Positions 10,969 through 23,282 of a DNA stretch of 54,000 nucleotides are shown here, in pieces; the first letter of the stretch is position 1, and every line of letters starts with the position of its first letter. The notes beneath the pieces were generated by a model that did not search any database, was not told the DNA's origin, and worked only from the letters and a program-made list of their open reading frames with translations. Source of the DNA: a virus; the IMG/VR virus record IMGVR_UViG_3300047316_000404, positions 1 to 54,000 of that record. One strand, written 5' to 3'. A program made the translations under genes and the position numbers.

Positions 10969-11060
10969 TGACTATTAAGGGGTTGAGCGCATATGTAGCG
11001 CTTCTAAGCACCCCTCGGGAAACCGCCCGCTCGACGGATACGGGGAACCGAGTCTAACTA

Positions 11061-11113
11061 CCCCGGGGACGCTCTTTTGCGTCCCCGAATCATTTTCGGG
11101 GAAGGGTGCTCTC
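11061..11113 (+). promoter_or_regulatory. Leader with two mutually exclusive hairpins
   Basis: Hairpin 1 is GGGGACGC, loop TCTTTT, GCGTCCCC (11065-11086). Hairpin 2 is CCCCGA, a 7-base loop, then TCGGGG (11083-11101). They share the CCCC at 11083-11086, so only one can form. Hairpin 2 takes in part of the purine-rich ribosome-binding site (GGGGAAGGG) of the short frame at 11114. The architecture resembles an attenuator or RNA switch, but no known class was recognised. Confidence 0.5.
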
Positions 11114-11248
11114 ATGACTGCTGCAGCAGCTTCTATTTCCGAGCCCGGCAACCGTCTCAGGGTTCGAATATTTGTTGATTTCAGGGGCGCGATCGGATCA
11201 CTTTTGATCGTGCTGCGCTATAACGGAATTGGCAGACGGCGGCCCTAG
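11114..11248 (+). CDS. Possible 44-residue peptide behind the structured leader
   Basis: ATG eight bases after a strong GGGGAAGGG ribosome-binding site. The peptide starts MTAAAASISEPGNRLRVRIF and is otherwise unremarkable. It overlaps the tail of the opposing small gene by 51 bases. Its only support is the leader structure and the ribosome-binding site. Confidence 0.35.
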   Translation: MTAAAASISEPGNRLRVRIFVDFRGAIGSLLIVLRYNGIGRRRP

Positions 11249-11503
11249 CCGATCCTCCAGGCTCTTGATCCATTTCGCGTCATCGATGCAGGTTTGGCAG
11301 TGATCGAATGGGCAGCCGGCGAAGTGCCAAAGGCGGCGCAAATCGGCCCGCAGTTGCTCGATCTCGGCCTCGCGGTTGCCGATCAGCGCGTGCAACAGCG
11401 CGTTGGCCTTCAGCAGGTCATCGCGTTCGGCCGCCAAGCAGATTGGGCACATTCCATCTGCGACCGCTGCCTCAGATTCCCAATGTGCGTGCCTGCATGG
11501 CAT
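11198..11503 (-). CDS. Small zinc-binding, coiled-coil phage protein
   Basis: 101 residues from MPCRHAHWE. Cysteine pairs (C3, CPIC about 19-22, then CPFDHCQTC about 64-72) suggest one or two zinc sites flanking a heptad helix (LLKANALLHALIGNREAEIEQLRADLRRL). A longer frame would overlap the preceding gene, so the internal start is preferred. Last gene of the minus-strand accessory operon. Function unknown. Confidence 0.6.
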   Translation of the reverse strand: MPCRHAHWESEAAVADGMCPICLAAERDDLLKANALLHALIGNREAEIEQLRADLRRLWHFAGCPFDHCQTCIDDAKWIKSLEDRLGPPSANSVIAQHDQK

Positions 11504-11508
11504 TTGAT

Positions 11509-11766
11509 TCAACCCAAATGAACTCTGGCGCACGGCGCCCAGCACCGATCGACGATCTTTCCGGTCGGGTCGAGCAACCTAACTTCGCCCTGTCGTAAGT
11601 CGCGCTTGATCTTATCGAAGACGGGCCGGACTGACGCTTCGTCCGGTCCTACGGCGCGAACCTTGCGGGTATCAGAATAGCGCCCGCCGTGACGATCGAC
11701 GATCCATGGCCCGCCGCTAACGAGTTCAACTTCCGAGAGGTCGTCCTCGTATTTCATTTTGGTCAT
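11509..11766 (-). CDS. Hypothetical small protein
   Basis: 85 residues from MTKMKYEDD. The start ATG overlaps the stop of the upstream membrane-protein gene (ATGA). Predicted beta-rich N-terminus with charged helices (VRPVFDKIKRDLRQGE). Two cysteines near the C-terminus. No family recognised. Confidence 0.55.
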   Translation of the reverse strand: MTKMKYEDDLSEVELVSGGPWIVDRHGGRYSDTRKVRAVGPDEASVRPVFDKIKRDLRQGEVRLLDPTGKIVDRCWAPCARVHLG

Positions 11767-11978
11767 CCAAACAGTTTGACAATCGTGGCACCGAGCGCGA
11801 CGCCGGCCGCCAACAGCGCGGCGCCGGCGGTCATGCCGGCGAATGCGACTTGCCACGGCGCATGCCGCATTTCCTGATGTCGGCGATCGGATTCGGCAAA
11901 GTTGCGATGGATCTCCGTCAGCATCTTGTCGATGCGAACGGTTTGCTCGCGCGCGTCAATCGGATCGATGTCTGCCAT
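11763..11978 (-). CDS. Small membrane protein with cytoplasmic helix
   Basis: 71 residues. An amphipathic N-terminal helix (IDKMLTEIHRNFAESDRRHQEM) leads into one membrane span (about residues 43-66, FAGMTAGAALLAAGVALGATIV). This topology occurs in phage holin-like and membrane-anchor proteins. It is coupled to the next gene by ATGA. With the neighbouring 66-residue protein it could form a second membrane unit besides the lysis genes at the left end. Confidence 0.6.
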   Translation of the reverse strand: MADIDPIDAREQTVRIDKMLTEIHRNFAESDRRHQEMRHAPWQVAFAGMTAGAALLAAGVALGATIVKLFG

Positions 11979-11996
11979 TTGGTCCTCTTGGCGCTT

Positions 11997-12197
11997 TCAA
12001 GCAAACATCTTGAACAGGATTGCGCTTGTCATCGCCATGTTGGTGCCGACCATCCATTTCAAGACCGTCAGATCGGTTTCGATCTTGCCGGCCCGATTTT
12101 CATAGCCGGCGGCCTCTTCGGCAGCGGCGCGCGCGATCTCCTCCGGCACGTCGCCGGCCCGCAATGCAGCGTAGAGTTTTGCCATCATGACGGTCAT
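11997..12197 (-). CDS. Small membrane-associated helical protein
   Basis: 66 residues from MTVMMAKLYAAL. Ala/Glu-rich helix (EEIARAAAEEAAGYENR), then a short hydrophobic C-terminal helix (LKWMVGTNMAMTSAILFKMF) likely to insert in the membrane. Ribosome-binding site GGAG lies 11 bases before 12197; starts at 12188 and 12185 are also possible. The longer upstream frame is a shadow. Function unknown; holin-like by size and shape. Confidence 0.5.
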   Translation of the reverse strand: MTVMMAKLYAALRAGDVPEEIARAAAEEAAGYENRAGKIETDLTVLKWMVGTNMAMTSAILFKMFA

Positions 12198-12222
12198 TCG
12201 AGCTAGTGCTCCTTGGCGCTGC

Positions 12223-12516
12223 TCATTGGGCAATCCTGAATTGGTCCCAAGGATCGTTCCTGGGCGGGCAACCAATCCCCAGGAACGCGACCGTACACTT
12301 GGCCCGCCATGCCGCTTCGCGTTGCGCGGCGTTGTCCTTGACAAACTGGATTTGCGCCTCGAGGTTGGCAACGTGCTTGTCGTTGGCAGCGTTGACGAAT
12401 TCTATCTGCGCTTCCAGATTGGCGATTTGTTTCTGCTCGGCTGGCGTCAGATCGCCGGCATGGGCGGGTGCCAGCGTGCCGCACAGCACGGCGGTAATTA
12501 TTACAAGTCGTCGCAT
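12223..12516 (-). CDS. Exported small coiled-coil protein
   Basis: 97 residues. Signal peptide MRRLVIITAVLCGTLAPAHA with cleavage at AHA, then a duplicated heptad unit (IANLEAQIEFVNAANDK and VANLEAQIQFVKDNAA), then a C-terminal segment with two cysteines (CTVAFLGIGC). Periplasmic, perhaps an outer spanin-like or moron-type envelope protein. The start is preceded by the operon's recurring GCGAGGAC ribosome-binding block. Confidence 0.65.
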   Translation of the reverse strand: MRRLVIITAVLCGTLAPAHAGDLTPAEQKQIANLEAQIEFVNAANDKHVANLEAQIQFVKDNAAQREAAWRAKCTVAFLGIGCPPRNDPWDQFRIAQ

Positions 12517-12522
12517 TGGATT

Positions 12523-12560
12523 GTCCTCGCTTGTTTGATGGGCGCCCGCCAAGGCCGCCC
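12523..12560 (-). promoter_or_regulatory. Leader L1: hairpin with TTGGCG loop plus GCGAGGAC
   Basis: On the minus strand a GC stem (GGGCG with CGCCC) encloses a loop containing CCTTGGCGG, followed by GCGAGGAC and the ATG of the exported-protein gene. One of six related leaders in this operon. Confidence 0.6.
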
Positions 12561-12749
12561 TGGTTCCGGTAATATTGCCCAGAGCGCCATATGGCGCAAG
12601 AGCGGCGGCCTCTGTTAATGTTTAATCATTCCGTCCGCCGGGCCGGCTGCTTCGGTCCTCGCGGCAGCCAAGGGACACCTGGGTGTCCCGGATGCCCGCG
12701 GAAGGATAGGGCCGGCCGGGACGCCAATCCCGCCGGCCCGCCCCGCCGT
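12561..12749 (-). other. Intergenic gap with stacked hairpins and an orphan GCGAGGAC block
   Basis: No gene seen. Three stems occur: GGGACACC with GGTGTCCC around a two-base loop (12672-12689); GGGCCGGC with GCCGGCCC (12709-12739) just after the stop of the upstream gene; and GGCTGC with GCAGCC (12645-12669) enclosing GCGAGGAC at 12656-12663. That block has no start codon at the normal distance, so it may be the remains of a lost cistron. No hammerhead core is present. Confidence 0.6.
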
Positions 12750-13064
12750 TTACCAGACTTGCCACCAATTTTTGTCGGATACGGGTGGCTTCAGGCAATC
12801 CGCTATCGATGGCTTGGCAACGCGCTCGACGTAATCGGCCGGAAGTTTTCCGTTTGCGATGAAATACGCGCCGTCCTCCATCGTGCTCCTGTTGGCGGCA
12901 GCGAGGACGTAACAACTGCAATAAGCGTTGTTGTTATTCATTCCCGCCAAACAAGTTGCCATTGCCTCCTTTATAAAGGCGAGCGTGTTCGCCTGGTCCA
13001 GCGGTGTCGCATGCGCCGCAACAGGCAACAATAACGTGCTCGCAAGCAATAATCGTTTCATCAT
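12750..13064 (-). CDS. Exported cysteine-containing small protein
   Basis: 104 residues. Signal peptide MKRLLLASTLLLPVAAHA, then a helical mature part with four cysteines (ATCLAG, YCSCYV, ADCLKP), probably disulphide-bonded in the periplasm. GCGAGGAC lies eight bases before the ATG at 13064; a second ATG follows at 13061. Looks like a lysogenic-conversion or envelope protein; function unknown. Confidence 0.65.
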   Translation of the reverse strand: MMKRLLLASTLLLPVAAHATPLDQANTLAFIKEAMATCLAGMNNNNAYCSCYVLAAANRSTMEDGAYFIANGKLPADYVERVAKPSIADCLKPPVSDKNWWQVW

Positions 13065-13072
13065 GGTCGTTT

Positions 13073-13101
13073 GTCCTCGCTTGTGTGCCGCGCCATGCGG
13101 C
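13073..13101 (-). promoter_or_regulatory. Leader L2: hairpin plus GCGAGGAC
   Basis: Stem GCCGC with GCGGC around ATGGC, then CACACAA and GCGAGGAC before the ATG at 13064. It lies immediately 3' of hammerhead HH1, so it would be the 5' end of the cleaved downstream transcript. Confidence 0.6.
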
Positions 13102-13112
13102 GAGTCGGAACT

Positions 13113-13167
13113 GGACTCATCAGGCGCCGCGTCACGGCGCGACGGGGGTTAGTTCCCCGTTTCATCC
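13113..13167 (-). ncRNA. Type II hammerhead ribozyme HH1
   Basis: Read 5' to 3' on the minus strand: GGAT (stem II), GAAA, CGGGG, loop AACTAAC, CCCCG (stem III), UC, then the cut, GCGCCG, loop TGACG, CGGCGC (stem I), CTGATGA, and GTCC closing stem II with one G-U pair. All catalytic core positions match the hammerhead consensus, including the A15.1-U16.1 pair and C17. Predicted cleavage is between 13141 and 13140. The 5' third also encodes the last residues (DETGN) and the stop codon of the upstream gene, the stop lying in the stem III loop. Confidence 0.92.
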
Positions 13168-13343
13168 TTGTGGCTGCGGGCCTCCAGCCAGGCCCGCTCG
13201 AGTCGCGCGATCATGAGGGCGGCGCGCTGGCATAGGTCTGCGGTGGCGGAAGAGCGTCCCGGGTGCGCCTCGGTCAGCTCGCGCGAGATGGCCTCAACCT
13301 CGGCCTGCGTCGGCGGTGTGCTATGGTCGTCGTCTGGCGACAT
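13149..13343 (-). CDS. Small helical hypothetical protein, 3' end shared with HH1
   Basis: 64 residues from MSPDDDHSTPP, with AGGA nine bases upstream. Predicted helices (AEVEAISRELTEAH and LCQRAALMIARLERAWLEAR). Its stop TAA lies in the stem III loop of HH1, so ribosomes finishing this gene must unfold the ribozyme. That offers a simple way to couple translation and cleavage. A longer frame to 13385 would run antisense in phase through the preceding short gene and is rejected. Confidence 0.6.
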   Translation of the reverse strand: MSPDDDHSTPPTQAEVEAISRELTEAHPGRSSATADLCQRAALMIARLERAWLEARSHKDETGN

Positions 13344-13347
13344 GGCG

Positions 13348-13431
13348 TCATTCCTCGTTGGTGGGTTGCTGGAACATTTCGACAATCAGATCAAGATTGG
13401 CCTGTAGCGCGTCATCGGAGAACAGGCCAAT
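13348..13431 (-). CDS. 27-residue gene with apparent ATT start
   Basis: Reads GLFSDDALQANLDLIVEM then FQQPTNEE and stops five bases before the next ATG. The operon's GCGAGGAC block is nine bases upstream, where other cistrons have ATG, but the codon here is ATT. The alternatives (GTG one base after the block, or an out-of-frame ATG) give no sensible product. Either a rare ATT start with low expression or an inactivated start. Confidence 0.45.
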   Translation of the reverse strand: MGLFSDDALQANLDLIVEMFQQPTNEE

Positions 13432-13440
13432 GTCGCCACT

Positions 13441-13472
13441 GTCCTCGCATTTTGGGCGCCCGCCAAGGCGCC
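13441..13472 (-). promoter_or_regulatory. Leader L3: hairpin with TTGGCG loop plus GCGAGGAC
   Basis: Perfect stem GGCGCC / GGCGCC with loop TTGGCG on the minus strand, then CAAAAT and GCGAGGAC. It lies 3' of HH2 and 5' of the ATT-start gene. Confidence 0.65.
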
Positions 13473-13488
13473 GGGTTGGTGGTTATCT

Positions 13489-13547
13489 GGACTCGTCAGG
13501 GCCGGCGATACCGGCCGACCGGGCACAACAAGCGCCCGGTTTCGTCC
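13489..13547 (-). ncRNA. Type II hammerhead ribozyme HH2
   Basis: Minus strand order: GGAC, GAAA, CCGGGC, 9-base loop, GCCCGG, UC, cut, GGCCGG, loop TATCG, CCGGCC, CTGACGA, GTCC. All three stems are perfectly paired (4, 6 and 6 bp), and every core nucleotide matches the hammerhead consensus, with N7 = C. Predicted cleavage is between 13517 and 13516. It begins on the base after the TAA stop of the upstream gene. The open stem II defines type II topology. Confidence 0.95.
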
Positions 13548-14009
13548 TTATGCCGCCGATCGATTGCGATCTATCCCCCAGGGCGCGGTCTCGTAATCGG
13601 GAAGCCCATTAATCGCCCGCGACCGGATTGCCGCTATAATCCGGTGCGCGACCGTCTGCCGATAATCGTCGGTCTCGCAAGCCTGATAGTCGAAACAGTC
13701 GCAATTTTTGATGACCCAGACGCAGCGCTTCATGTGCCCCATATGGACGAATGGCTCAAAATACCGGAACGTATAGCCGCTCGCGTCCTCGCCGATCTTG
13801 CCCGGCATGTTGCCAGGGCCGCAATCCGGGTAACGATGGCAGACCGACCGTTCGTTCTCGGCCAATAGTACGCGGCCGATATCAGTCCAATCAAACAATT
13901 CAGCCTTACTCGGCTGAATGTAATAGCCGAACTGGTCTTTCATCCGTTTATCCTTAGCGAACGAAAGTAGCGCGTCGATATGGTCGTGGGAAACTACGAA
14001 AGCGGACAT
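13548..14009 (-). CDS. Hypothetical phage accessory protein
   Basis: 153 residues from MSAFVVSHDHIDALLSFA. The start at 14009 is chosen for its distance from GCGAGGAC; the ATG at 14015 is too close. Conserved-looking stretch GRVLLAENERSVCHRYPD and a cysteine/aromatic-rich second half (CVWVIKNCDCFDYQAC). I recall this type from many proteobacterial phages, always without assigned function. The stop TAA abuts ribozyme HH2. Confidence 0.7.
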   Translation of the reverse strand: MSAFVVSHDHIDALLSFAKDKRMKDQFGYYIQPSKAELFDWTDIGRVLLAENERSVCHRYPDCGPGNMPGKIGEDASGYTFRYFEPFVHMGHMKRCVWVIKNCDCFDYQACETDDYRQTVAHRIIAAIRSRAINGLPDYETAPWGIDRNRSAA

Positions 14010-14016
14010 TTGCATT

Positions 14017-14046
14017 GTCCTCGCTATGTCGACTCTCGCCAAAGAG
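14017..14046 (-). promoter_or_regulatory. Leader L4: TTTGGCGA loop plus GCGAGGAC
   Basis: Short stem (CTC with GAG on the minus strand) around TTTGGCGA, then GTCGACATA and GCGAGGAC before the ATG at 14009. The loop motif is kept although the stem is weak. Confidence 0.5.
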
Positions 14047-14064
14047 GCCGGCCTGATCGCCGAT

Positions 14065-14086
14065 CATGGGCACCGAAATGCCCATG
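14065..14086 (-). terminator. Hairpin in the gap that lacks a ribozyme
   Basis: Perfect 7-bp inverted repeat CATGGGC with GCCCATG around an 8-base loop, nine bases after the stop at 14095. No U-tract follows. It takes the position that hammerheads occupy in neighbouring gaps; possibly a processing or attenuation element. Confidence 0.5.
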
Positions 14087-14094
14087 GGCTGCAA

Positions 14095-14301
14095 TCAGAT
14101 CGTCAGCTCTGGGTAATGCACTGTCCATGCATATGGAGACGCTGGCGAACAAGCTACTACATCCCATTGCGGAACAAGATCAGGATGCGCCTTGCAGAAT
14201 GCGCAGCTGCAGCCGCCTTCGATTGGTCTACGCAGATCACCAGGAAGTGGCATGAATAGCGTATCACCCCGTTTGGTTACTCTCGTGCCGTTGAAATGCA
14301 T
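14095..14301 (-). CDS. Small Cys-rich hypothetical protein
   Basis: 68 residues. Motif GGCSCAFCKAHPDLVPQWD suggests a small zinc- or metal-binding core followed by a beta-rich C-terminus (WTVHYPE). GCGAGGAC precedes the ATG by six bases. Resembles short phage proteins with a GGCSCxxC signature; function unknown. Its last codons include CTGACGA by chance, but no GAAA partner exists, so this is not a ribozyme. Confidence 0.65.
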   Translation of the reverse strand: MHFNGTRVTKRGDTLFMPLPGDLRRPIEGGCSCAFCKAHPDLVPQWDVVACSPASPYAWTVHYPELTI

Positions 14302-14307
14302 TTGATC

Positions 14308-14344
14308 GTCCTCGCATGTTGTCGGACACTCGCCAAAGCGCCCG
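14308..14344 (-). promoter_or_regulatory. Leader L5: hairpin with TTTGGCGA loop plus GCGAGGAC
   Basis: Stem CGGGCGC with GTGTCCG (two G-U pairs, valid only on the minus-strand RNA) around TTTGGCGA, then GCGAGGAC and the ATG at 14301. It lies directly 3' of HH3. The G-U pairs support function as RNA from this strand. Confidence 0.6.
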
Positions 14345-14357
14345 GTTCGTTGTGTCT

Positions 14358-14409
14358 GGTCTCATCAGTGACGGCATTACCGCCAGACGGGCAAAAGCCC
14401 GTTTCGACC
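14358..14409 (-). ncRNA. Type II hammerhead ribozyme HH3
   Basis: Minus strand order: GGTC, GAAA, CGGGC, TTTT loop, GCCCG, UC, cut, TGGCGG, loop TAATG, CCGTCA, CTGATGA, GACC. Stems have 4, 5 and 6 bp with one G-U pair. Core nucleotides are all conserved. Predicted cleavage is between 14386 and 14385. Stem II is GGTC/GACC, where HH2 has GGAC/GTCC, a compensatory change supporting the structure. It starts on the base after the upstream TAA stop. Confidence 0.95.
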
Positions 14410-14595
14410 TTAACGCAGAACGTCATCAACAAATTTCGCCTTGCGAATATCATCCTCCTTGGCTATGCGCGCCGCCTCCAAAGCTTCTTTTTTGGTTTCA
14501 TATCCAACATAGGAAACTTCATAGCCTTCGCTATCAATTACCCACCAAAAGCCATCGCGCTTCATGGGAGCGTAGGTCTGATAAATGCGGGTCAT
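14410..14595 (-). CDS. Small hypothetical protein, first cistron of the accessory operon
   Basis: 61 residues. Beta-rich N-terminus (DGFWWVIDSEGYEVSYVGYETKKEAL read from residue 14) with a charged helical C-terminus. The pattern of strand, turn and helix recalls small phage proteins with a DUF2188-like fold, but I cannot assign it. GCGAGGAT lies seven bases before the ATG. The TAA stop abuts HH3. Confidence 0.65.
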   Translation of the reverse strand: MTRIYQTYAPMKRDGFWWVIDSEGYEVSYVGYETKKEALEAARIAKEDDIRKAKFVDDVLR

Positions 14596-14602
14596 TTGTT
14601 TG

Positions 14603-14635
14603 ATCCTCGCTTTGCGCCCAAGCCATTCGGGCTTG
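14603..14635 (-). promoter_or_regulatory. Leader L6: hairpin plus GCGAGGAT
   Basis: Stem CAAGCC with GGCTTG around CGAAT, then GGCGCAAA and GCGAGGAT before the ATG at 14595. First leader of the operon; it lacks the TTGGCG loop of the others. Confidence 0.5.
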
Positions 14636-15025
14636 CAATCAACAACCTATCAAACAAATACAAAAAGAAAACCGTAAAGAACCAGAAAGATCCACACAAA
14701 TCCGCACACGAGCGCGAAAGTTTGTTGCGTCCGCCATGTGCCATTTAGGAAACAAAGAGAGGGGGCTCTCGATTTGTGCCATGGCGCGCCCGAGCCGGGA
14801 AAAGGTCGCTCCATCTGGTAGTTTTAGTGCCATATGGTCTATTTAGTGCCATGATGGAGCGTTTCCAATCCGGCACACCCATCAGGATACCTTTAGGCCG
14901 GTGCGCACAGCACGCGTGAGGGCCGCGAGCGCCTAAGCCGCTGATATCATTACGTTGTGGTAGTGGGGTACGCTGGGATCGATGTTTGGAGCATAGTTCC
15001 AGACCATCTACGACCAGCGGCGAGG
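14636..15025 (-). promoter_or_regulatory. Probable promoter/operator region of the ribozyme operon
   Basis: About 390 bases without a convincing gene. Four copies of ATGGCAC (minus strand) occur at 14738, 14776, 14827 and 14846, three followed by an A-rich flank. Two of them lie inside a perfect 8-bp inverted repeat (GCTCCATC at 14808-14815, GATGGAGC at 14853-14860). This looks like a regulator-binding cluster. A 64-codon frame at 14639-14833 starts in one repeat but has a low-complexity product and was not accepted. Confidence 0.5.
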
Positions 15026-15355
15026 TCAATCTCCCCCGTCTTTAACGGGAGTTTTCCGGACGAATGCTCCAGGGGCGACTTCCTTGCCCCGAGCGCCGTG
15101 AAATGGATTTGTCCCCATCCTATACGGCCATAACGGGCAGTGGACAGCCGTGCAGCGCCGGACCTCGGATTGCTGGTAGCAGCAGCAGTCCAGACATTTC
15201 GCCCGGATAACCGCCATGATCGAGCGCTTTTGATGCGCTTGCCTTAGGACTTCGGGCGCCAGGTCGTCCGGATGCCGGCCTTCCGTCGAACCGTCCGGAT
15301 GCCGGACAATGAAGGATTCTGATAACGAATTCGGTGCAATATCGTCGATGGGCAT
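15026..15355 (-). CDS. Cys-rich, zinc-binding phage protein
   Basis: 109 residues. Central motif IRAKCLDCCCYQQSEVRRC then CPLWPYRMGTNPF looks like a compact zinc-binding module seen in phage proteins of unknown role. The N-terminal half (HPDGSTEGRHPDDLAPEVL) is acidic. It probably acts on nucleic acids or as a host-protein adaptor; this is inference. It lies upstream of the ribozyme operon on the same strand. Confidence 0.7.
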   Translation of the reverse strand: MPIDDIAPNSLSESFIVRHPDGSTEGRHPDDLAPEVLRQAHQKRSIMAVIRAKCLDCCCYQQSEVRRCTAVHCPLWPYRMGTNPFHGARGKEVAPGAFVRKTPVKDGGD

Positions 15356-15719
15356 GGTGGCCTCTTATCCAGGTTGCTGTGCCAAGTGGCCGGGCGGTGA
15401 CGCAATCACCGTCCGGCTGCGCCTATCGTAGCACAGCTCGCGCCCGCGAACATCCTCACACCCTCCCGCGTAATTTTGTTGCGTCAAGCTACAGTTCTCC
15501 GCGCACCTCGCCCCCATCCGCCCCCCCCGGTACGCCCCCCCCGGACCCCCCCGGTAGGCTGGCCAGGCCACCCCCATCGATCTTCTATATCAGTGCCCCC
15601 CGCATATCTGTCCGCTGTTTTCCCATTTCAACCGTTAGTATAGAATTCGGCTATGGTTCGCCTTGTTGGTTTTAGAACTTCGATTTTGGGTTTCCCTTAT
15701 ATAGGACTAGACCTTGTCC
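15356..15719. other. Non-coding stretch with hairpin and C-rich tracts
   Basis: No gene supported. Contains an inverted repeat near 15392-15420 (GCCGG, CGGTGA and complements around CGCAA) and, at about 15513-15556, runs of C separated by GGTACG and GGA, giving G-runs on the minus strand that could form a G-quadruplex. Confidence 0.45.
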
Positions 15720-15916
15720 TGTCCCAATACCGCGCTCCCCTGCCGGGTATGGATTCCGGCGTGGGCGTTGGGACAAGAGTTGTCCCAGGCTTTTTTGTTG
15801 TCTGGGAATGGGTTGATTGATTTTGGGACAACTGGGACAAAAGCCATTGTCCCAGGCGTAAAAAAAGCGTAAAAAACCTGAAAAGTTTGCTTGGTATTGG
15901 GACACAACCTGTCCCA
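15720..15916. repeat. Iteron-like cluster: eight TGGGACA / TGTCCCA sites
   Basis: TGTCCCA at 15720, 15781, 15848 and 15910; TGGGACA at 15769, 15824, 15833 and 15898. Six of them form three inverted pairs spaced 5, 8 and 5 bases apart. An A-rich stretch (15858-15885) lies among them. The cluster is downstream of a RepA-like ATPase gene. Iterons plus an A-rich tract suggest a replication origin; a multi-site operator is the alternative. Short overlapping frames across it look non-coding. Confidence 0.6.
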
Positions 15917-16145
15917 GATTGTGACAGCCAGAATGGAGGTTGATTTTGGGGCTTTGGCGGGCTTGAGGCGAGGCGCCGAGCCAGCGGCGCTGCCGGGAGG
16001 GTAGGCACCTCCCGGCGCGATGAGCGGCCGTGCCGTGCCCGCCGAATGGGGAGAAACCGCGATGCTATGGATCGCGATTTCTATAGCCATCAGAAAGCAC
16101 CGCGCGAGGCTGGCTATCCGAGTGCGGTGGTTCTGATGTAAAGCC

Positions 16146-16173
16146 GGAGGGGCGGGCTGGACCCCACCCCTCC
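16146..16173 (-). terminator. Hairpin terminator after the RepA-like gene
   Basis: Minus strand: GGAGGGG, T, GGG, loop GTCCAG, CCC, G, CCCCTCC, then GGCTTTA. A very stable stem about 28 bases past the stop of the ATPase gene, with only a short U-run. Confidence 0.65.
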
Positions 16174-16200
16174 ACCCCGAAATCTAGGGCGACCGGCCCT

Positions 16201-17619
16201 TTAGAACAAGTTCTTTTGGCCACCGGTATTCTGCTGCCGGTTGAAGCGGAGGACGGCCTGGCGGGCGGCGTCTTTGCCTTCGTCGGTGAGGTGCCACTTA
16301 TTACGGAGCTTGGTTGTTAATTTAGGCTTCTTCTTTTCGAGGTCATTGACGAGGCGTTCGACCTTTTTCCGGTAGGCTTCGCCGCTTTCGGAGACCCATC
16401 CGAGATCGCTTGCCCAGTTGGCGAATGATCCGCCGTGGTCGGCGGGCATGTTGAGCATGGCGGTGAGGACGCGGTCTTCGTCCTCCTCGGCCTTGTCGGA
16501 GTGCTGTTCTTCCTCGCGCTGGGAGATGGGGACGGCGCGCACGGTGGTGATTTGCCTACCTTTTTGGTCGACGAGGGCTGGGGATTTGATGGGCTCGAGC
16601 TTGAAGGACATGGCCTGGAAGCCGGGGCCGCGGATTTTGTTGTAGTGGAGCTCGACCACGTCGTCGGTGGTTCTGGCGAGGGTGAGGTTACCGTCCATTT
16701 CGGCGAGGTATGCGCCGCCGCCGCGTGGGAGTAGTTGGGAAGGGTCGGTGACGTATTTGATGGGGTGGCACAGCACGAGGACGCAGGGTTGGCCTGGCAA
16801 CGTCGTGAGCCTTCGCAGCGTGCGGGCGTAGGCGCCCATCTGGGTATTGCTGAGTTCCTCGTTGCCCAAAAAATACGCCGCGCTGGTATCGACGATGATG
16901 AGGCTGAATTCGCCCACGACCTTGCCGTCGGCCTCGATTGTGGGCCACATCTGCTCGATGTCGAAGACGCCGGGGAGGAAGTAGATGGTGTCCTTGTCGG
17001 GGTTGTCGTTTCGGAAGCTGTTGGCGCCGATGACGCGCATGCGGATATCGTCGGGGTTTTCGCCGACGAAGTAGAGGACGCGGCCTTTTTCGAGGCGGTG
17101 GGAACCGAACATGGCGTTGCGGTCGAGGCAGGCGACGCGCTCGGCGAGGTGGAGGGCGACGGCGGTCTTGGCGTGGCCGGTCTGGCCGGTCAGGGCGTAG
17201 ATGAAGCGGCGTTGGAGGATGCCTTCGACCAGGTAGTCGGGCGGGATGAAGCCCATGATGAATTCGGCCTGGCTGAGGACTTTGCGGGGCGCGGCCGCGG
17301 TCCTGGGGCCGGAGGGTTTGCCCTTGGCGGGGCCGTTGCTGCCTGGTGGGGGCGGCCGCTGGACCCCGGCGAAAGCGGCCGCGATGCGGGTCTGCAGGGC
17401 GTCCTCGCCCAGGTGGGCGACCAGGCCGTGGGCCTGCGCCATCTCGTAGAGGGCATCGATCGCCGTGGCCATGGGGAGGCCGCCCGCGACGTAGCCGGCG
17501 GCGTCCTTGGCAGCCTCGTCGAAGGCCTTGGCGCAGGCCTCGACGTCGCCCTCGCCCAGGCTGGCGAGCACCGCCCGCCAGTTCGCCAAACCTTCCCGGA
17601 AGCGATCGTCGATGGTCAT
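16201..17619 (-). CDS. RepA-like RecA-fold ATPase/helicase
   Basis: 472 residues. RecA-fold ATPase of the RepA/AAA_25 type: Walker A GQTGHAKT (145-152), Walker B SLIIVDTSAAYF (D244), and VLVLCHPIKY as a later motif. Such proteins work as hexameric replicative helicases or helicase loaders. The C-terminus has a winged-helix-like segment (ending LTDEGKDAARQAV). Start MTIDDRF at 17619 overlaps the methyltransferase stop (ATGA); the longer upstream frame is Arg/Pro-rich shadow. With the iteron-like cluster downstream it forms a plausible replication module. Confidence 0.85.
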   Translation of the reverse strand: MTIDDRFREGLANWRAVLASLGEGDVEACAKAFDEAAKDAAGYVAGGLPMATAIDALYEMAQAHGLVAHLGEDALQTRIAAAFAGVQRPPPPGSNGPAKGKPSGPRTAAAPRKVLSQAEFIMGFIPPDYLVEGILQRRFIYALTGQTGHAKTAVALHLAERVACLDRNAMFGSHRLEKGRVLYFVGENPDDIRMRVIGANSFRNDNPDKDTIYFLPGVFDIEQMWPTIEADGKVVGEFSLIIVDTSAAYFLGNEELSNTQMGAYARTLRRLTTLPGQPCVLVLCHPIKYVTDPSQLLPRGGGAYLAEMDGNLTLARTTDDVVELHYNKIRGPGFQAMSFKLEPIKSPALVDQKGRQITTVRAVPISQREEEQHSDKAEEDEDRVLTAMLNMPADHGGSFANWASDLGWVSESGEAYRKKVERLVNDLEKKKPKLTTKLRNKWHLTDEGKDAARQAVLRFNRQQNTGGQKNLF

Positions 17620-18386
17620 GGCCGGTAGACCCTCGCGATATGGCGGGCGAGCGGGGCGGGAATCTTGGCGATCATGGCCGAGGCGAACTTGCGGGTTTTT
17701 CCAATGTGCTGGCGCTTGTCGTCTGCGGTGCGCCGGTATTGCGCGCCCTCGACCATGTGACCGAATTCGCGTGCATTGGCGCAATTGAAGCCGACTTGCG
17801 ATAGGGCGATGGCGAACCAGGAGCCGCCGTTGTTCTTGATGTTGCGCTCGGCGTGCGTATTGAAGGCTTGTCCCGGCCTATGGCGAGGGTCGTCTGGATG
17901 TTTCCAGTCGAGGCCGCCGACCTTCACCGCCTTGGCCGTCACCGGCATCAGGGCCGGCACGTCGCCCCACAGGTAGAACGAGCCGAAGTTCCAGCGCGCC
18001 CGCCCCACCCATTTCTGCGCCCCGCGCACGTTCTCGACGATCATCGGGACATGCCGCCCGGCCGCCGCGCACGCCTCGCGCTGGATGCGGAAGCACGCCT
18101 CGAAAAGGGTGTTGTCGGGCGGCGGCAACGCCTTGGCGCGCTTCCACGGCATCGCCCGGTAGCTGTAGGCCTGGCAGGGGGGACTGGCGACGATGAGCGT
18201 GGCATCGCGGAACTGGCTGCCGTGCAGCGTCAACACGTCCTGGATCACGAGCTGGGCTGGATAGCGGTGCTCGCCGTAGTGGTGCCGCTCGATGTCGAAG
18301 CCCACCACGTCGTAAGCCTCCGCCAGCAGGGCCTCCGTCCAGCCCCCAAGGCCGCAATAGAGGTCGATGGCGAGGGGGCGCTTCAT
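17616..18386 (-). CDS. DNA (cytosine-5-)-methyltransferase
   Basis: 256 residues. Motif I DLYCGLGGWTEAL (from residue 8), motif IV ASPPCQAYS with catalytic Cys71, and motif VI VPMIVENVRG with E118-N119-V120. Short for the family, so the target-recognition region is minimal. No restriction partner lies beside it, so it probably protects phage DNA from host restriction or alters regulation. Coupled at both ends (ATGA with the RepA-like gene and with the preceding small gene). Confidence 0.9.
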   Translation of the reverse strand: MKRPLAIDLYCGLGGWTEALLAEAYDVVGFDIERHHYGEHRYPAQLVIQDVLTLHGSQFRDATLIVASPPCQAYSYRAMPWKRAKALPPPDNTLFEACFRIQREACAAAGRHVPMIVENVRGAQKWVGRARWNFGSFYLWGDVPALMPVTAKAVKVGGLDWKHPDDPRHRPGQAFNTHAERNIKNNGGSWFAIALSQVGFNCANAREFGHMVEGAQYRRTADDKRQHIGKTRKFASAMIAKIPAPLARHIARVYRP

Positions 18387-18595
18387 GTCGCGAAATACCT
18401 AGCGAATGGATTGCAGATGATGGCCTCGCAGGCCGCGATGCCCAGCAGGTCGATGAGCCCGGCCCGCCAGGCGTACGCCAGCAGCGGATCGGTCGCCGCG
18501 CCGTAGTCTAATTCATTGCAGCCGTAGAGCAGGGCGCGTGCTTCCGCCCGCGCGCGCAGGACCAGGATCGGTGCAATAAGAGTGGTATCCGACAT
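18383..18595 (-). CDS. Small hypothetical protein coupled to the methyltransferase
   Basis: 70 residues, Ala/Leu-rich, mostly helical, with three cysteines (LLYGCNEL, AACEAIICN). Its stop overlaps the methyltransferase start (ATGA). No family recognised. Confidence 0.55.
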   Translation of the reverse strand: MSDTTLIAPILVLRARAEARALLYGCNELDYGAATDPLLAYAWRAGLIDLLGIAACEAIICNPFARYFAT

Positions 18596-18691
18596 TGCAT
18601 TTCCGATAAAAAAAATTCAGGCGCCGCCGTCGAGCACGGCGTTGATCAGGCTATGGCCGGTCACGGAGCGAACGGACCACGGACGCCACGG
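18596..18691. other. Short gap, nothing recognised
   Basis: About 96 bases between two minus-strand genes, with an A8 run (18608-18616) near the downstream start. No gene, hairpin or clear promoter was identified. Confidence 0.4.
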
Positions 18692-22274: not shown

Positions 22275-22291
22275 GTCACCAAATTGGTGAC
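22275..22291. promoter_or_regulatory. Operator O5 (perfect) in the recombination-operon promoter
   Basis: GTCACC, AAATT, GGTGAC, directly after TTGACC (22269-22274), the same -35/operator geometry as at O1. It probably represses the exonuclease operon in the lysogen. Confidence 0.85.
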
Positions 22292-22322
22292 AACACTGCT
22301 CCCCACTACAACGGGGAGCCTG

Positions 22323-23282
22323 ATGAAACCGATTGAGCGCGTCGAGATCACCGACACCTACGATTGGTTGGCCGAGCGACAGCGCTACATCGGCGCCAGC
22401 GAAGTCGCCACCGTCTGCGGCGTCGCGGCTTACGGCTCGCTCGCCGAACTCTACGCCGAAAAGAAGGGCCTGCGCCCGCCGATGGTTGATAGCGGCGTGC
22501 TACGCCGCGGCCGCTGGGGAGAATCGGCTGCGTTCCAGGCGCTCGCCGACGAGCGGCCCGAATGGGACGTGCAGCGCGCCCGCGTCCACGTCATCGATCG
22601 CGAGGCGCGGATCGCCTGCACACCGGACGGCTTTGCGACCGCGCCCGATCGGGAAGGCTTCGGCCTCGTCCAGGCCAAGGTCGTGAGCCGCTCGGTCTAT
22701 CGTGCCAAATGGTTGGACGATCCCGAAGGGCCGTTCGACGGGCCGGCGATGCCGCCGGCGCACTTCCGACTGCAGACGGTCTGCGAGCGCATGCTCAACG
22801 CCGACCGCTGCCCGTGGGCCGTGCTCGCGGTGCTGGTAAACGGCGAATACGACTGGTCGTTTCGCCTATTCGACATCGAGCCTGACCCAATCCTCGAGGA
22901 TCGCATCCGCTACGACGTTGCCGCGTTCTGGCGCGACCATCTCGATCCCGGCGTGATGCCCGACTTCGAGCCGCAGCGCGACGAGGCGCTGATCAAGCAA
23001 CTCTTTCCGCAGGACGATGGCAGCGAGATCGATCTGACCACCGACAACCGCGCGCTCGTCGCGGTCGATGAGCTGACCGAGGCGCAGGCGGCCCTTAGTC
23101 GGCTGAAAAAGACCGAGACCGCACTCAAAACCGAACTGACCGCGAAGTTGGGCGCCGCGACCTACGGGCGCCTGGCCGATGGCCGCCGTTTGTCCTGGCG
23201 CCTGCAGCATCGCAAGGGCTACGCGGTTGAACCGGCCGACTTTCGCGTATTCCGAATTCTCAAGCAACAACAGGAGGCATGA
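22323..23282 (+). CDS. YqaJ-like (lambda exonuclease type) recombination nuclease
   Basis: 319 residues from MKPIERVE (GGGGAG upstream). N-terminal RYIGASEVATVCG, then GRWGESAAF (E68) and ACTPDGF (D102), the PD-(D/E)xK core of YqaJ/lambda exonucleases, which chew one strand for annealing-type recombination. The expected E-x-K is Q117-A-K119, so one metal ligand is replaced by Gln. C-terminal heptad helix (LTEAQAALSRLKKTETALKTEL). First gene of the operon controlled by O4/O5. Confidence 0.82.
   Translation: MKPIERVEITDTYDWLAERQRYIGASEVATVCGVAAYGSLAELYAEKKGLRPPMVDSGVLRRGRWGESAAFQALADERPEWDVQRARVHVIDREARIACTPDGFATAPDREGFGLVQAKVVSRSVYRAKWLDDPEGPFDGPAMPPAHFRLQTVCERMLNADRCPWAVLAVLVNGEYDWSFRLFDIEPDPILEDRIRYDVAAFWRDHLDPGVMPDFEPQRDEALIKQLFPQDDGSEIDLTTDNRALVAVDELTEAQAALSRLKKTETALKTELTAKLGAATYGRLADGRRLSWRLQHRKGYAVEPADFRVFRILKQQQEA

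Follow-up and report, generated by a model that had tools for sequence, protein, structure and literature searches.

The window analysed here covers 54,000 nucleotides of an IMG/VR virus contig from a soil phage. A terminase, a head-tail adaptor, an internal virion protein, a CI-like repressor and a RecE-like exonuclease were recognised among its proteins, which together suggest a temperate podovirus-like phage. The minus strand carries a series of small genes without confident families, and within this series lie three hammerheads and a second structured RNA element, termed E2 (Table 1). The series is preceded by a long gap (14852-14640, minus strand), perhaps a promoter or operator region, which contains a T-rich stretch and recurring words resembling GGCACTAAA and TGTGCGGA, also present in relatives. 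A sigma-70 promoter scan of the block returned matches at chance level only. Directly after hammerhead 2 stands only a tiny ORF (GTG start, about 17 codons), followed by the 64-aa ORF; the ribosome-binding site after this hammerhead precedes nothing but the tiny ORF (13448-13343, minus strand), and relatives have full small genes at this place. The tiny ORF is possibly the remnant of an exchanged gene. A very GC-rich double hairpin (12743-12640, minus strand; -67.7 kcal/mol, z -1.9) follows the 104-aa gene. No DNA match was found among 50,697 GenBank phages with positions 30000-54000 as queries in near mode and 11000-18600 in distant mode. The host search in genome contigs gave 11 pattern matches from varied taxa, and the three alphaproteobacterial ones, when checked, contained no hammerhead.

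Table 1 Coordinates of the RNA elements and genes of the accessory block, and of the recombination gene encoded elsewhere in the window.
Feature	Position	Strand	Remarks
Leader hairpin, AUGGC loop	14616..14632	-	first gene of block; no ribozyme before it
61-aa ORF	14410..14595	-	upstream of hammerhead 1; no confident family
Hammerhead 1	14358..14409	-	stem II GGTC/GACC; predicted cleavage 14386/14385; adjoins TAA 14412-14410
Leader hairpin, UUGGCG loop	14323..14344	-	after hammerhead 1
GCGAGGAC ribosome-binding motif	14308..14315	-	gene after hammerhead 1
68-aa ORF	14095..14301	-	between hammerhead 1 and E2; no family; unrelated genes instead in relatives
E2	14047..14099	-	UGAUUGCAGC, variable hairpin, AUCGGCGAUCA, GGCCG
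Leader hairpin, UUGGCG loop	14033..14046	-	after E2
153-aa ORF (fam0)	13548..14009	-	kept in several relatives
Hammerhead 2	13489..13547	-	stem II GGAC/GTCC; predicted cleavage 13517/13516; adjoins TAA 13550-13548
Leader hairpin, UUGGCG loop	13455..13472	-	after hammerhead 2
64-aa ORF	13149..13343	-	3' end overlaps hammerhead 3
Hammerhead 3	13113..13167	-	GGAT/GTCC; predicted cleavage 13141/13140; TAA 13151-13149 inside loop III
Leader hairpin, AUGGC loop	13087..13101	-	after hammerhead 3
104-aa ORF	12750..13064	-	after hammerhead 3; starts MMKRLLLASTLLLPVAAHA, signal-peptide-like
RecE-like recombination exonuclease	22284-23282		encoded in window

The original prediction had placed three type II hammerheads on the minus strand of this block, and a descriptor scan of both strands recovered exactly these three in the 54 kb, all on the minus strand and at the positions proposed. 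The covariance model R1, constructed from 50 hammerheads of other phages with the window and its relatives left out, scored the three hammerheads at 62.1, 62.1 and 56.7 bits (E 6e-18, 6e-18 and 4e-16). The best R1 match beyond these had an E-value of 0.06, and neither the descriptor scan nor R1 revealed a further hammerhead in the window. As 400 dinucleotide shuffles yielded 0 type II hammerhead matches, a chance origin is ruled out by the shuffles together with the R1 scores. The high pairing within the R1 set is partly a matter of construction, because its sequences were picked by a pairing descriptor. Each of the three copies contains the catalytic core, consisting of CUGANGA and GAAA, the A15.1-U16.1 pair and H17 at the cleavage site, and fits the type II topology with loop-closed stems I and III and an open stem II, according to both the descriptor and R1. 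Cleavage is predicted after C14386, C13517 and C13141 in hammerheads 1, 2 and 3, respectively. The claim that the stems differ and covary also holds: besides the stem II variants listed in Table 1, 10 stem pairs show two-sided changes among the hammerheads of the window family. On sequence grounds, the three elements are real type II hammerhead ribozymes with predicted self-cleavage.

The Rfam type II model, proposed originally as a check on the ribozymes, found them only in part. At Rfam's own threshold there was no match anywhere in the window; at a looser threshold, RF02276 (Hammerhead_II) matched hammerhead 2 with 32.4 bits and hammerhead 1 with 30.6 bits, both below the cut-off of 37, and missed hammerhead 3 even in a 141-base search. 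The window copies share the core, topology and stem order of this family and differ from its consensus in a stem II of 4 bp and in the tail. Predicted folds display hammerhead 1 in the centroid structure and hammerhead 2, together with its leader hairpin, in the lowest-energy structure, while hammerhead 3 is not clearly visible. Stem II of hammerhead 3 ends with a U-G pair on the core side, where close relatives have GGAC, and the tail of this hammerhead is predicted to be able to pair GAGUC/GACUC with the core-flanking strand in competition with stem II (13119-13100, minus strand). Because of the U-G pair next to the core and this predicted competing hairpin, hammerhead 3 may be weak. By eye, the GAGUC/GACUC pairing is also possible in L114 and L111. 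A pseudoknot between loop I and the 3' tail, which is frequent in type II hammerheads but not universal (PMC3088659), occurred in 13% of 192 sequences versus 17% of shuffled loop-tail pairs, showing no enrichment. With three hammerheads within 1.3 kb, on one strand and flanking individual genes, the arrangement is that of clustered prophage hammerheads.

All three hammerheads are in contact with a stop codon. As originally stated, they begin at or overlap the upstream TAA, which hammerheads 1 and 2 abut and hammerhead 3 holds in loop III. They do not, as had been supposed, occupy three successive gaps: the gap between the genes at 14301-14095 and 14009-13548 contains E2 and no hammerhead. Each hammerhead is succeeded by a short hairpin, whose loop is UUGGCG or AUGGC, and then by GCGAGGAC; the same leader type also precedes three further genes without a hammerhead. 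The word GCGAGGA recurs at 14610, 14024, 13448, 13080 and 12530 on the minus strand, and a leader hairpin followed by GCGAGGA lies before six genes (14632-14603, 14344-14308, 14046-14017, 13472-13441, 13101-13073 and 12555-12523, minus strand). All six counted pairs of the leader hairpin covary, and the UUGGCG loop does not vary within this set, whose members were selected by their loop. As both the hammerhead stems and the leader hairpin covary, the RNA structure is maintained.

Hammerhead, UUGGCG-loop leader hairpin and GCGAGGAC form a module of 107 nt, whose mean identity across nine phages is 87%, compared with 31-35% in the flanks (about 100 columns on each side). In relatives from other contigs, seven gene families with no similarity detected among them follow the hammerhead 1 module, and the hammerhead 2 module stands before several gene families. 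The same pattern of a constant module was found in other phage groups, with fewer cases under a stricter pairwise test. The conservation of a module between unrelated genes is new here, and it was missed, as was E2, by the original prediction, which had identified the ribozymes correctly. Recombination probably takes place at the modules. A reading in which these sequences act mainly as DNA, namely as homologous-recombination joints between accessory genes with the ribozyme fold as a relic, would suit the sharp edges of conservation at both module ends, the unrelated genes on either side and the presence of a RecE-like exonuclease. Selection for DNA homology alone would not, however, yield stems that change in compensating pairs around a fixed catalytic core, as seen in stem II of hammerhead 1 (GGTC/GACC versus GGAC/GTCC elsewhere), although this argument is weakened somewhat by the fact that the sets used for stem compensation were found by core and pairing. 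We regard a role as DNA only as quite improbable.

A pattern scan of IMG/VR retrieved at least 120 stretches, and position statistics were derived from 185 distinct type II hammerheads among the matches listed. In about 130 of the 185, the upstream stop codon lies between -8 and +1 nt from the first base of the ribozyme, and a start codon preceded by a Shine-Dalgarno (SD) sequence follows within 95 nt downstream in 166, versus 37% at random positions. The cut site falls inside a long same-strand ORF in 18 of these listed hammerheads, versus 89 for random sites. The measurement of stop-codon placement over 185 viral type II hammerheads is new here; the contact itself could reflect genome compactness alone. 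Serial use of hammerheads, initially thought unusual, is not: clusters and the idea of splitting were already described (PMC3088659), and loci among the listed IMG/VR matches bear runs of up to 7 hammerheads.

We consider it probable that the block is built of RNA-bounded gene cassettes and that its transcript is cut into single-gene mRNAs. The block would constitute a series of exchangeable small-gene cassettes, with each border placed at the upstream stop codon and composed of a type II hammerhead (E2 in one gap), a fixed-loop leader hairpin, GCGAGGAC and the start codon. The cuts would fall 24 nt beyond the upstream stop codon in hammerhead 1, 31 nt in hammerhead 2 and only 8 nt in hammerhead 3. 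The upstream mRNA would keep its intact stop codon and a 3' hairpin formed by stem III, and the next mRNA would carry a 5'-OH end and begin within the hairpin of stem I. Along with separation, the cuts may bring stabilisation. Every gene, or a short group of genes, would become an mRNA unit of its own, and an incoming gene would therefore be expressed whatever its neighbours, with the conserved modules supplying homology for gene exchange. The separation of cistrons proposed originally agrees with the order of stop codon, ribozyme, leader hairpin, ribosome-binding site and start codon in the window, and likewise across the 185 hammerheads; the function itself we infer from this order.

Self-cleavage separates RNA, and ends with 5'-OH or cyclic phosphate can mark RNA for turnover. 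Cleavage might instead lower expression, the ribozyme removing or destabilising part of the transcript and keeping upstream or downstream accessory genes low; the IMG/VR sites lie in gaps, so a cut touches both neighbours. Yet the predicted downstream product keeps the stem I hairpin, usually the leader hairpin, and the ribosome-binding site, none of which a pure silencer needs, and the stop codon and stem III hairpin retained by the predicted upstream product would be equally needless. Lowered expression thus appears improbable to us. Two or more cuts per transcript also release, by hammerhead chemistry, monomers with ligatable 5'-OH and cyclic-phosphate ends, and a host ligase of the RtcB type could in principle join segments released between two hammerheads into circular RNAs. 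We give this very little credence: the phage proteins scanned, which represent part of the ORFs, included no recognisable RNA ligase, and a search for circular or spliced products by Perreault et al. was negative (PMC3088659).

The cassette explanation assigns E2 to the same type of slot as the hammerheads. The gene that follows hammerhead 1 has the UGA of E2 (14097-14095) as its stop codon. The covariance model R2, whose training set includes the window copy, matches E2 of the window with 61.8 bits (E 1e-13). Of 53 distinct matches from a pattern scan, 36 have the hairpin; among these 36, the upstream ORF ends exactly on the first three bases of E2 in 25 (UGA; UAA in two), and an SD-preceded start follows 7-48 nt downstream in 34. 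Ten pairs exhibit compensating changes in the 36 sequences, a covariation that is partly due to selection because these sequences were chosen for a hairpin, and conservation of those motif parts that entered the pattern follows from how the sample was chosen. The R2 search added copies with altered P1 pairs, yet mostly retaining GCAG, CGGC and GCCG. About 12 copies of E2 occur in one contig, nearly all at gene junctions, and about 10 in another; contigs with E2 include L200 (5823-13593, plus strand), L157 and L159. Most of the E2 phages checked are without hammerheads and nearly all hammerhead loci checked are without E2, whereas the window family possesses both. In some other phages, E2 is followed by the loops UUGCCG, AUGGC and UUGGCG, resembling those of the leaders.

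Comparison of E2 with Rfam, known ribozyme classes included, gave no relevant match, which rules out a known RNA family within Rfam. No description was found in Rfam or in the literature searched, the coverage of which was partial, and E2 may be described outside Rfam. Blastn against phage and plasmid records returned short partial matches only. The 61 genomes of the family around a Neorhizobium genome held a single weak match and therefore offered no evidence for a host element. E2 appears to be a structured intercistronic RNA that is absent from Rfam, supported by covariation, apparently undescribed and new here.

In the predicted folds of E2, the P1 form is dominant (mean 0.79). Masking of the E2 5' strand, with an assumed mask length, raised the mean predicted CGGC:GCCG pairing from 0.17 to 0.85 in 34 sequences. 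This shift would be expected if a ribosome at the upstream stop codon sat over the ribozyme's 5' strand, or over that of P1 in E2, delaying folding and cutting and coupling processing to upstream translation. The proximity of stop codons to the ribozyme start in about 130 of the 185 listed hammerheads, and the exact coincidence of stop codon and E2 in 25 of 36, point in the same direction. Compact phage genomes could, however, place stop codons there without coupling, and the masked length is an assumption. We consider such ribosome gating rather unlikely; it is compatible with the cassette explanation, and the two can hold together. It is conceivable, though less likely than not, that E2 represents an undescribed phage RNA class which can replace hammerheads between genes, is built on the UGA, and alternates between UGAUUGC/GCRAUCA and CGGC/GCCG pairing as selected by the ribosome, controlling the processing or translation of the next gene. 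If true, E2 and hammerheads would be parts of a general stop-codon punctuation in phage accessory operons.

The role of prokaryotic and phage hammerheads was listed as an open question in a 2017 review (PMC6155905). Stop-codon placement, a constant module and E2 in the same type of slot make this role testable, as the prediction is that cassette-gene expression depends on whether the ribozyme is active and that hammerheads and E2 are interchangeable. The cassette arrangement also suggests how phages may insert genes into an operon while leaving neighbours undisturbed.

Among known systems, RNase III sites in intercistronic hairpins split the polycistronic RNA of the T7 early genes into gene-length mRNAs. 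These sites and the elements of the window are alike as intercistronic structures for splitting phage RNA, but T7 processing is protein-dependent, whereas hammerheads need no protein. By analogy, E2 might be nearer to the T7 sites, and its modelled irregular helix of about 16-20 pairs would suit an RNase III processing site. The plastid intercistronic expression element (PMC2230500) is similarly a short structure between cistrons through which an operon gives stable monocistronic mRNA, but it belongs to a plastid system with processing sites mapped in a different stem-loop. Theta (HDV-like) ribozymes of gut phages (PMC10879173) are also self-cleaving phage RNAs with a proposed role in transcript processing; they constitute a different ribozyme class and are linked to tRNA 3' processing. 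Closest are the natural type II hammerheads of Perreault et al. 2011, who described clusters around single genes in prophages, proposed the splitting of long transcripts into gene-length mRNAs, and demonstrated that a triple arrangement is cleaved both in vitro and in E. coli (PMC3088659). As this idea was published in 2011, transcript splitting is not new. Those clusters of type I, II and III hammerheads share with the window the placement of several hammerheads around single or few small genes and the same proposed splitting role. The window may differ in several features: its hammerheads are all of type II and sit on stop codons, a conserved leader hairpin and GCGAGGAC come after every one of them, the module persists where the genes change, and E2 occupies one gap. 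The block is plausibly a well-supported case of the published clustered hammerheads, with cleavage predicted, to which stop-codon placement, a persistent leader-bearing module and the companion element E2 are added.
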